From Stenotrophomonas sp. WZN-1 (GTDB lineage: Bacteria; Pseudomonadota; Gammaproteobacteria; Xanthomonadales; Xanthomonadaceae): 64,000 nt of DNA. The stretch covers positions 3,676,001-3,740,000 of the forward strand of contig NZ_CP021768.1 in the NCBI RefSeq assembly GCF_002192255.1, written 5' to 3'. Every line of letters starts with the position of its first letter. Within the stretch, counting starts at the first letter, position 1. Below are positions 2,877-57,570 of this stretch, in pieces. Under the pieces are notes generated by a model. The model worked only from the letters and a program-made list of their open reading frames with translations. It did no database searches and was not told where the DNA came from. Both the position numbers and the translations under genes were made by a program.

Positions 2877-3086
2877 TCAGCGCTGCGGACAGGCGTCCAG
2901 CACGCACAGACGCCATTGGCGCTCGCACAGGGCCGGGGCGTTGCCCTTGGCCAGGCACTCCAGCCGGAGTTCCTCGCAGTACACACCGCCGCCGCAGACG
3001 ATGATGTTCTGTGCGGACAGCGAGCCCACCAGCGTTGCATAGATCAGGACGGCGGCCGATACCTGGCGGAAAAGCGTGCGCTTCAT
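2877..3086 (-). CDS. Small cysteine-rich exported protein
   Basis: 69 residues from ATG 3086. GGGAG lies about 6 bases upstream of this ATG, while the earlier in-frame ATG at 3092 directly abuts that site. The N-terminus (MKRTLFRQVSAAVLIYATLV) is a signal peptide or membrane anchor. The mature part has six cysteines (VCGGGVYCEE, ECLAKG, LCERQ, LCVLDAC), suggesting a small disulphide-stabilised periplasmic protein. No family recognised. It converges on the HDOD gene. Confidence 0.62.
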   Translation of the reverse strand: MKRTLFRQVSAAVLIYATLVGSLSAQNIIVCGGGVYCEELRLECLAKGNAPALCERQWRLCVLDACPQR

Positions 3087-3197
3087 ATCCATCTCCCAGT
3101 GTCCGGTATTGGACGCACCTACTGTGCTGAATGCGACAAGAGCAGACAGTGACCGCACTCACTTTCCCGACCTGATCAGAATTCCCTTACAGAAATG

Positions 3198-10536: not shown

Positions 10537-12562
<2,026 letters not shown>

Positions 12563-12810
12563 GATGTGCATTAGAGCATAGAAAGCGCTTGGTCCCAGTG
12601 CCGCATATCGCGGCATGGCGTGGATCTGCCGCACTGGCTTTAACGGAACCGTGACATCGCGTTCAGTAACGTGCACGCGCATCGTGTCATTGCGACCGAT
12701 GTATCCGTCGCCGTCTTCGTGGCCCCTGCCCGGTTCGCGCTGCATGCCACCGGCCCTCCGCTGCAAGCTCTGCTCACTCCCCTCAATCCCTTGATCGGAG
12801 AAGCTCCTTC
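12563..12810. other. Divergent promoter region of thiC and BCCT gene
   Basis: About 250 bases between the riboswitch and the BCCT transporter start. Besides a ribosome site (GGAG) before the BCCT ATG I see no convincing small gene or repeat. Promoters for both directions must lie here, but no strong -35/-10 pair was identified. Confidence 0.4.
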
Positions 12811-14479: not shown

Positions 14480-14597
14480 GGGCGGGTCGGTGTGGGCTGG
14501 CAGGACACGCCGTAAACCCGTCCATGGGGGCTCGATGGCGCCATCCATGGCGCCAACGGTCCTGCCAGCCCACACCGGCCCACCCCCGACAGATTCC
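14480..14597 (+). repeat. Long compound hairpin element, copy A
   Basis: Outer stem: 18-bp perfect pairing of 14489-14506 with 14559-14576, extendable to 14480/14586. A linker containing ACGCCGTAAACCCGTCC (14507-14523) follows the left arm. Inner stem: TGGCGCCAT / ATGGCGCCA (14536-14555) with tip CATCCATG. The 3' flank is CCGACAGATTC. It shares linker, tip and flank with copies B and C although the stem sequences differ. Confidence 0.7.
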
Positions 14598-14613
14598 CGG
14601 TGACGGTGGGACC

Positions 14614-14632
14614 ATCCACGCCATGCGTGGAT
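14614..14632. repeat. SMAG-like palindrome lacking the GTAG head
   Basis: ATCCACGCCATGCGTGGAT, identical to the hairpin of the tandem array at 29 kb, but preceded by GGACC instead of GTAG. Confidence 0.65.
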
Positions 14633-14654
14633 GAGGTGTATCGGAAAACACGAA

Positions 14655-14695
14655 GGGGTCGGATCCGTTTTCCTTCGGAAAACGGATCCGACCTC
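14655..14695. repeat. GGGGTCGGATCC palindrome
   Basis: A 17-bp perfect inverted repeat (GGTCGGATCCGTTTTCC at 14657-14673 with GGAAAACGGATCCGACC at 14677-14693) and a 3-base loop. A related, less perfect copy lies at 29855-29895. Confidence 0.75.
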
Positions 14696-14771
14696 AACCC
14701 ACAGCGCGCGGCTGTTGCTGTTGCCTTTGCTCTTGATCTTCCTCTTTCTCTTCCTGCGGTGGCGGCCGCAG

Positions 14772-14890
14772 GAAACTGTCAGGGGCCGGGCGGGTGGGCT
14801 GGGCGGGGGTGTCCGCGGCATGGATGCCGCGGCCAAGTCTCCAGGGACGGATTCACGGCGTCCCCCGACCAGCCCACCCGCCCGGCCCAA
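14772..14890 (-). repeat. Long compound hairpin element, copy B (inverted)
   Basis: Outer stem: 20-bp perfect pairing of 14783-14802 with 14869-14888. Inner stem: CCGCGGCAT / ATGCCGCGG (14813-14832). Read on the minus strand, the linker contains ACGCCGTGAATCCGTCC and the 3' flank is CTGACAGTTTCC, both shared with copy C. On the minus strand it lies shortly after the ggt stop codon. Confidence 0.7.
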
Positions 14891-27182: not shown

Positions 27183-27956
27183 TTATTTGGTGGTGTAACC
27201 ACCATTGACCAGGATGGTCTGCCCGGTCATCCACCAGCCATCGGTGACCAGGAAGCGGATCCACGGCACGATGTCGGCGATGTCGGTCAGGCCGGTGCGG
27301 GTGAACGCGGACAGCGCCGCCGCAGTCTTGTGATACGCCTGCGCATCGGCACTCTCGGCCGGATAGAAGAACGGCGTGTCCATCGGACCCGGGCCGATCG
27401 CGGTCACCGAGATGCCACGCTCACCGAACTCCTTCGACGCCGCGCGGGTGAAGTGCTCGACCGGTGCCTTGGTGCCGGCATAGCTGGAGTAGAACGGCGT
27501 GAATGCGCCCAGCAGTGAGGTGACCAGGGTGCAGATGCGGCCACCGTCGTTGACGTGGCGGCCGGCCTCCTTCAGGAAGAAGAAGGCAGCCTTGGCGTTG
27601 ACCGCACTCATCTCGTCGTACTCCGCTTCACTGATCTCCAGCAGCGGCTTTTTCAGTACCTTGCCGACCGTGTTGATGGCGATGTCGGGGCGGCCGACCG
27701 TTGCCACGGCATCGGCGAACAGGCGCTCCATCGCGGCCGCCGACGTCAGGTCTCCCTGCAGGGCCACCGCCTTGCTGCCGGCCGCCTGCACGGCGGCAAC
27801 GGTCGCTTCTGCATCGGCCTGGGTGGCGGCGCTGTTGTAGTGGATGACGATGGCTTTGGCGCCCTGGCTGGCGAAGTCGCGGGCGATCAGTCCGCCCAGG
27901 TTCTTGGCGCCACCGGCGATCAGCACGGTCTTGCCCTTGAGGGAATGGTCGGTCAT
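27183..27956 (-). CDS. Short-chain dehydrogenase/reductase
   Basis: 257 residues from ATG 27956. NAD(P)-dependent oxidoreductase of unknown substrate. The nucleotide-binding turn reads LIAGGAKNLGGLIA, a variant of TGxxxGxG. Catalytic YxxxK is YAGTK in YSSYAGTKAPVEHF, preceded by VTSLLG. The C-terminus has FLVTDGWWMTGQTILVNGG, typical of the family. It is divergent from a LysR gene, the usual regulator-target layout. Confidence 0.92.
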   Translation of the reverse strand: MTDHSLKGKTVLIAGGAKNLGGLIARDFASQGAKAIVIHYNSAATQADAEATVAAVQAAGSKAVALQGDLTSAAAMERLFADAVATVGRPDIAINTVGKVLKKPLLEISEAEYDEMSAVNAKAAFFFLKEAGRHVNDGGRICTLVTSLLGAFTPFYSSYAGTKAPVEHFTRAASKEFGERGISVTAIGPGPMDTPFFYPAESADAQAYHKTAAALSAFTRTGLTDIADIVPWIRFLVTDGWWMTGQTILVNGGYTTK

Positions 27957-57454: not shown

Positions 57455-57570
57455 GCCGGTCGGGATGGGTTCGCGGGGGACGCCGTGAATCCGTCCTTGG
57501 AGGCTTGGCAGCCGCATCCATGCGGCTGACACCCCCGCGAACCCAACCCGACCGACCTCTGACAGATTTC
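57455..57570 (+). repeat. Long compound hairpin element, copy C
   Basis: Outer stem: 57458-57479 pairs with 57532-57553, 22 positions with one mismatch. Linker ACGCCGTGAATCCGTCC (57480-57496). Inner stem: CAGCCGCAT / ATGCGGCTG (57509-57528) with tip CATCCATG. 3' flank CTGACAGATTTC. Same orientation relative to the preceding stop codon as copies A and B. Confidence 0.72.

Follow-up and report, generated by a model that had tools for sequence, protein, structure and literature searches.

A YPAL-like dispersed repeat of Stenotrophomonas and other Gammaproteobacteria with a putative pair of CsrA/RsmA-type hairpins

The closest described relative of the repeat studied here is the YPAL/RU-2 family of Yersinia (Rfam RF02770, Ysr224). 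In the accessible part of its description, YPAL/RU-2 is intergenic, mobile and present in many copies of ~168 bp with target duplications of 3–26 bp, and it is co-transcribed with upstream genes, perhaps affecting transcript stability (PMC2229807). As far as the available portions of other reports state, Yersinia genomes hold 2 to 144 copies and E. coli 3 (PMC2847712), Ysr224 ranks with the commonest annotated small RNAs and responds to temperature (PMC9029176), and copies have been reported as transcripts in Y. ruckeri (PMC12112432). The RU-2 core, according to Table 1b in the accessible part of PMC2759123, consists of a hairpin (P2) with a GTAAA bulge and tip ATCCAT, a second hairpin (P3) with tip ATCCTT, and an outer stem.

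The window analysed here, a whole stretch of 64,000 nucleotides from Stenotrophomonas sp. WZN-1, holds a repeat that shares this core and twin-hairpin plan, RU-2 being in reverse complement. An earlier note on the sequence knew of no named family with such a layout, a claim that the common core with Ysr224 contradicts. Aligned over the core by cmscan, the Ysr224 model scored 36.7 and 31.0 bits in the window, which is below the Rfam cut-off of 70. Rfam matches to C4 and microRNA models were far under their cut-offs and were set aside.

Anatomy and paired change of the repeat

All three copies that the earlier note had located in the window were confirmed in place from the sequence. In each, the outer arms enclose 52 bases made up of A-C, P2, T, and P3. 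P2 is laid out as GCC, a GTRAA bulge, three pairs, a six-base tip, three pairs, and GGC; P3 has about ten pairs, often with one mismatch, and a six-base tip. The two tips are alike and read NTCCNT. The parts are as follows.

14480..14506, plus strand: copy 1, 5' arm of the outer stem (27 bp, 93% complementary to 14559-14585)
14509..14531, plus strand: copy 1, hairpin P2, the linker of the earlier note, tip GTCCAT at 14520-14525 (from sequence and fold)
14533..14558, plus strand: copy 1, hairpin P3, tip ATCCAT at 14543-14548 (from sequence and fold)
14559..14585, plus strand: copy 1, 3' arm of the outer stem (from arm complementarity)
14586..14782, no strand: spacer between the convergent copies 1 and 2, holding other short palindromes
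14783..14809, minus strand: copy 2, 3' arm of the outer stem (from arm complementarity)
14810..14861, minus strand: copy 2, core with P2 and P3 (from sequence); tips, as plus strand, ATGGAT at 14820-14825 (P3) and AGGGAC at 14843-14848 (P2)
14862..14888, minus strand: copy 2, 5' arm of the outer stem (27 bp, 96% complementary to 14783-14809)
57456..57479, plus strand: copy 3, 5' arm of the outer stem (outer limit approximate; from sequence and fold)
57480..57531, plus strand: copy 3, core, tips GTCCTT at 57493-57498 (P2) and ATCCAT at 57516-57521 (P3)
57532..57555, plus strand: copy 3, 3' arm of the outer stem (outer limit approximate; from sequence and fold)

The outer stem had been put at 18-22 bp; the stem is present, but the arms of copies 1 and 2 measure 27 bp, and their palindromes about 106-112 bp. 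The linker proved nearly fixed, as claimed, with its 17-base motif exact in two of the three copies and carrying 2 mismatches in copy 1, but it is not single-stranded: it forms hairpin P2 (3 bp, 5-base bulge, 3 bp). Allowing up to 3 mismatches, the motif matched 4 times in the window against a shuffled mean of 0.29, and the fourth match, at 27494, is a match to the motif and not a copy. Folding of the three copies on both strands gave z-scores from -6.3 to -8.0 in the six readings, with 0/200 shuffles folding as well. Within the spacer between copies 1 and 2, a perfect 17-bp palindrome with a 3-base tip lies at 14657-14693, and similar GGTCRGATCCGTTTTCC hairpins recur in other spacers of the genome. 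The window also holds a TPP riboswitch (12464-12565, minus strand; 63.6 bits, with an Rfam gathering cut-off of 54.3).

Beyond the window, arm length in 51 copies of other genomes was 19-40 bp (median 30), and the inner three pairs of P2 in 270 copies were mostly TAC/GTA (108), TCC/GGA (87), or CCC/GGG (66). Outer arms are unrelated in sequence between copies of a single genome. Alignment A2 started from 116 copies whose P3 had a TCC tip and whose outer stem was paired, counting GT, at 13 or more of 16 positions; these were reduced to 32 by similarity and, after removal of 11 with MAFFT gaps or shifts, to 21 rows. In A2, 94.5% of cells were paired, and double-sided change occurred in 28 of the 34 pairs. 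Double-sided cells numbered 204, compared with a shuffled mean of 59.2 and with 38-46 when partners were slid, and only 2 cells were one-sided. The earlier observation that stems differ between copies and stay paired is thus borne out well beyond the window, and paired change of this strength indicates that the folded form is kept.

The 3' flank, which had been described as almost fixed, recurs as a CTGACAG-like sequence in Stenotrophomonas copies, but it is not found in rows of other genera among the matches listed (e.g., L050, L053, L133). Several Stenotrophomonas copies (L267, L275, L277, L002, L016, L064, L139) carry a palindromic insert of ~90-100 bases within P3, similar in sequence every time, which looks like a second small element targeting hairpin tips. 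Another, different insert sits in the P2 tip of L265 and L279.

Copy number, range and mobility

Searching the whole 4.5-Mb genome for the motif with up to 2 mismatches returned 68 matches (35 forward, 33 reverse), and the reversed-motif control returned 0. A covariance-model search, as the earlier note had proposed, found at least 129 copies at E ≤ 0.001, a lower bound because only 150 of 4222 first-look candidates were scored. A one-model search of 369 gammaproteobacterial genomes, in which 12 candidates were scored in each, matched 70 of them; in a sample of the phylum, 19 of 249 genomes were matched, all 19 from the same class or closer. Besides those of the own genome, the rows of A2 come, among the matches listed, from Xanthomonas, Lysobacteraceae, Haliea, Ectothiorhodospira, Porticoccus, Halochromatium, Thiohalocapsa, Pantoea, Marinobacter, and bins. 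In the collection scan with a 16-base pattern, some rows among the matches listed (e.g., L044, L046, L058) hold the 16-mer without the fold. Of 5426 E. coli genomes, 5 had relatives of RU-2, four of them plasmid-borne and one chromosomal; the two inspected (L321 and L322, both 3001-3164) adjoin insertion sequences.

A divergent, Pseudomonadaceae-type variant (model R2) was detected in 70 of 119 genomes of one family (that of G477), across 14 of 19 genera. Its P2 is longer and without the GTRAA bulge, and both tips are the same as in the main family. The variant had no match in the plasmids or phages searched, and the Stenotrophomonas copy had none in the plasmids, where alone it was searched.

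Copies are often arranged in convergent pairs. In the own genome, 43 of 44 neighbours less than 2 kb apart are ordered plus then minus, one is minus then plus, and none share a direction; 41 of 88 sites are plus-then-minus pairs. Convergent genes do not explain this order, as 14 of the 25 pairs that could be placed between predicted genes lie outside convergent gene gaps (10 lie within them and 1 is undecided). At 11 of 19 loci of the variant there is a second copy, every time in plus-then-minus order, and G239 holds three such pairs. Elsewhere the arrangement is mixed, with same-direction neighbours in four genomes (G083, G089, G548, G624), minus-then-plus neighbours in G548, and a direct tandem array of six copies in G602 (L306, 4427-5647), spaced at 227-230 bp, each copy followed by a GTAGGAGCG-type repeat. 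Relative to genes, placed copies of the own genome tend to follow a gene on the strand that reads TCC in the tips, the gene mostly ending 46-142 bp upstream. Such a preference was absent from other genomes (12 of 24 placed copies), where 24 of 57 copies could be placed using gene calls made in this analysis.

Mobility was shown for the variant, at one intergenic site of the genus g275, which we guess to be Pseudomonas from its GTAGGAGCG-type repeats. The site is filled by a variant unit in G477, G677, G473, G673, and G674, holds the unit reversed in G669, and is without it in G671, G662, G556, G675, G676, G670, G663, G667, and G678, among others. The reversal in G669 may reflect a second insertion or an inversion. 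For the site in the window, we compared 41 Stenotrophomonas intergenic stretches from 50 loci (9 were not delimitable). The left copy paired above threshold in 21 stretches and the right copy in 17; inserts interrupt others. Depending on the species, the left copy is one or the other of two unrelated versions (e.g., L250, L251, L253 versus L252, L256, L262), single hairpins are swapped, and the stretch amounts to just 21, 30, and 44 bases in L280, L285, and L296, respectively. None of these stretches gave a clean filled/empty pair whose ends could be resolved. We had considered that the unrelated arms derive from insertion of the core into an existing terminator, or from an inverted target duplication, and found neither supported, since arms at the orthologous site change in pairs.

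Strand of the fold and its twin tips

The earlier note inferred selection on the folded form, which the paired change supports; mismatches in the outer stem point to the complement of the strand that it used. Wobble pairs should survive only on the strand that is used, and an A.C mismatch on the strand as read is G.T or G.U on its complement. We placed outer arms by Watson-Crick pairs alone and counted events over 72 arm clusters of 270 copies, which yielded 89 A.C, 28 G.T, and 134 other events (A.C versus G.T, p = 1.4e-8, by clusters and not by phylogeny; raw counts 224, 32, and 194). Counts over the whole structure also favoured A.C over G.T: 28 to 13 in a model-found set of 31 genomes (74 rows), 21 to 9 in another of eight genomes (29 rows), and 56 to 4 among the 30 rows of the R2 variant. 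One base pair at the orthologous window site appears as C-G in L250, as C.A in L251, and as T-A in L253. Copies lie on both strands of the chromosome, so replication bias should average out. We therefore regard a strand preference for the complement as well supported in the outer stem; this asymmetry overturned our first model, in which the TCC strand was the functional RNA. In P3 alone A.C is not in excess, with 7 A.C to 5 G.T events, 1 to 1 within the own genome and 3 to 6 in the other-genera set, which counts against the complement-strand reading.

On the complement, each tip is an ANGGAN loop with a closing C-G pair. Across three alignments of model-found copies (133 rows), P2 has the NTCCNT tip in 132 rows and P3 in 126, and the closing C-G pair is present in 132 rows for each hairpin, although these fractions are upper bounds and the conservation is partly built in, as models and patterns were made from copies with TCC tips. 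As aligned, the seven P3 exceptions have five-, seven-, or eight-base loops, and three of them are NTCCNT with an open C-G pair. The accessible part of PMC6692469 gives the RsmE consensus as (A/U)CANGGANG(U/A) and the CsrA SELEX consensus as RUACARGGAUGU. The free tip positions coincide with the N of the former, both tips form the hairpin A(N)GGA loop, and P2 of the TAC/GTA type comes close to the latter.

A csrA gene was found in 313 of the 369 genomes of the class. Contingency tables, read by hand from the class-search and csrA results, linked the repeat with csrA in genomes of at least 90% completeness (csrA in 59 of 60 carriers versus 221 of 254 non-carriers, p = 0.009) and among all genomes (65 of 70 versus 248 of 299, p = 0.04), both uncorrected for kinship, which alone could account for the association. 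Five carriers were without a csrA match over the cut-off: G008, G069, G100, and G343 (67-88% complete) and G196, which is 98% complete, holds at least 9 copies, and thereby counts against the CsrA/RsmA reading. In the genome of P. wadenswilerensis (source of L112), a member of the P. putida group, R2 had 0 matches at E ≤ 0.1. For this reason a P. putida pull-down of RsmA, RsmE, and RsmI, whose shared targets include ISPpu8-adjacent intergenic regions and a long palindromic region in the available part of the report (PMC7937890), stays a lead.

The best explanation, to which we give tentative and slightly less than even credence, is a YPAL-like mobile, intergenic, non-coding element whose complementary-strand RNA would carry two CsrA/RsmA-type hairpins. 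Support is good for the family as such, for its fold, and for its kinship with YPAL. Binding of CsrA/RsmA is the most likely mechanism, judged from the motif and its conservation; we infer that the GGA strand is transcribed in the own genome, that CsrA binds it, and that this has an effect. The functional product would be RNA of the strand complementary to the one first read, folded into a long, protective outer stem and two hairpins with ANGGAN hexaloops closed by C-G, the two sites probably being near enough for one CsrA dimer to occupy both. This RNA may arise inside a neighbouring mRNA or as a small RNA and, on binding CsrA/RsmA, would act as a decoy or place CsrA on that transcript. Retention of both tips in the R2 variant supports the CsrA/RsmA reading, and the reports of Ysr224 transcription support an RNA. 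The Rfam model of Ysr224 has the TCC orientation, which counts against reading the GGA strand, and where own-genome copies follow genes on the TCC strand the GGA strand would be antisense.

A single plan joins the Yersinia repeat, the copies of Stenotrophomonas and Xanthomonas, and the Pseudomonadaceae-type variant, one model alone matching roughly one in five of the sampled gammaproteobacterial genomes. It is possible, if rather speculative, that this mobile family spreads paired CsrA/RsmA platforms throughout the Gammaproteobacteria, either as a distributed decoy of dozens to over a hundred intergenic copies or as a transposable module that rewires the CsrA network. If true, mobile DNA would set part of the binding capacity of a global regulator.

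Alternative explanations and comparison with known systems

A different and, we think, somewhat unlikely account is that the fold acts as single-stranded DNA, served in trans by an HUH/Y1-type or other transposase, with the convergent pair as the ends of a non-autonomous REPIN-like unit. A strand-specific fold would be expected here too, and such a unit would suit both the g275 site that is filled, empty, or reversed in relatives and the plus-then-minus order (43 of 44 in the own genome, 11 of 11 second copies of the variant). However, outer arms unrelated within one genome are a poor fit to a unit that moves whole, pairing is not strict in other genomes, and it is a CsrA site, not any known transposase site, that the tips match. 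The earlier note had allowed for either RNA or single-stranded DNA; given the twin ANGGAN tips, we favour an RNA that would be bound by CsrA/RsmA over a Y1 transposase substrate.

We consider it improbable that the repeat is a 3'-end element in the TCC orientation, that is, a terminator or mRNA stabiliser with a long GC-rich stem whose tips bind something else. The same-strand genes ending mostly 46-142 bp before own-genome copies would agree with such a role, as would the co-transcription of YPAL with upstream genes and its possible effect on transcript stability in the accessible part of PMC2229807, but the mismatch asymmetry indicates the other strand, the 24 placed copies of other genomes have no orientation preference, and two identical tips are needless in a plain terminator. 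Slightly less probable still is that arm pairing is mainly mutational, through template switching that copies arm to arm at long palindromes or through exchange of whole stems between copies: this would accommodate the 2 one-sided against 204 double-sided cells in A2, the alternating left-copy versions, and the swapped hairpins, but the A.C intermediate between C-G and T-A at one site (L250, L251, L253), an A.C excess whose strand specificity symmetric correction would not yield, and a fixed core and tips that require another cause all speak against it.

With the preferred reading of a complementary-strand RNA, the plan now has a fold, a strand, and a concrete prediction of CsrA/RsmA binding. 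Integron attC sites have conserved simple-site boxes at the stem base; they were rejected as relatives of the repeat, whose arms are unrelated between copies of one genome. REP, BIME, and REPIN sequences, including the GTAG-tagged repeats of Stenotrophomonas and Pseudomonas, are likewise short, intergenic, palindromic, and numerous, with inverted pairs in REPINs, but they consist of one short palindrome with a GTAG or CGTC foot, whereas the window copies have neither tag and bear two hairpins on a long stem. GTAG-type repeats lie beside or between copies. Pae-1 of Pseudomonas aeruginosa, compared with our repeat by description only, is 84 bp long with 133 sequences and a predicted adjacent pair of stem-loops in the available part of PMC2267715. 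CsrB/C, RsmX/Y/Z, and the Xanthomonas RsmU, small RNAs that sequester CsrA/RsmA, also have hairpins with GGA tips; they are one or few, dedicated or 3'UTR-derived, in contrast with a dispersed, mobile repeat whose binding is predicted. RsmU is described as limited to Xanthomonas, and nothing in the accessible part of its report (PMC7694677) points to kinship, so we do not count it as a relative.

YPAL/RU-2 itself, at 168 bp, has weaker outer arms and TGACA-type ends, whereas the window copies are shorter than its 167-168 bp, have near-perfect arms, and often form convergent pairs. Filled and empty sites like those of YPAL were seen for the variant in g275 only. The literature searched, which covered few subscription papers, yielded neither a link of a YPAL-type repeat to CsrA nor its wide range. 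What was known is thus the YPAL/RU-2 core, and what appears to be new is the strand asymmetry of the outer stem together with twin ANGGAN tips that, by their sequence, match the published CsrA/RsmA site.
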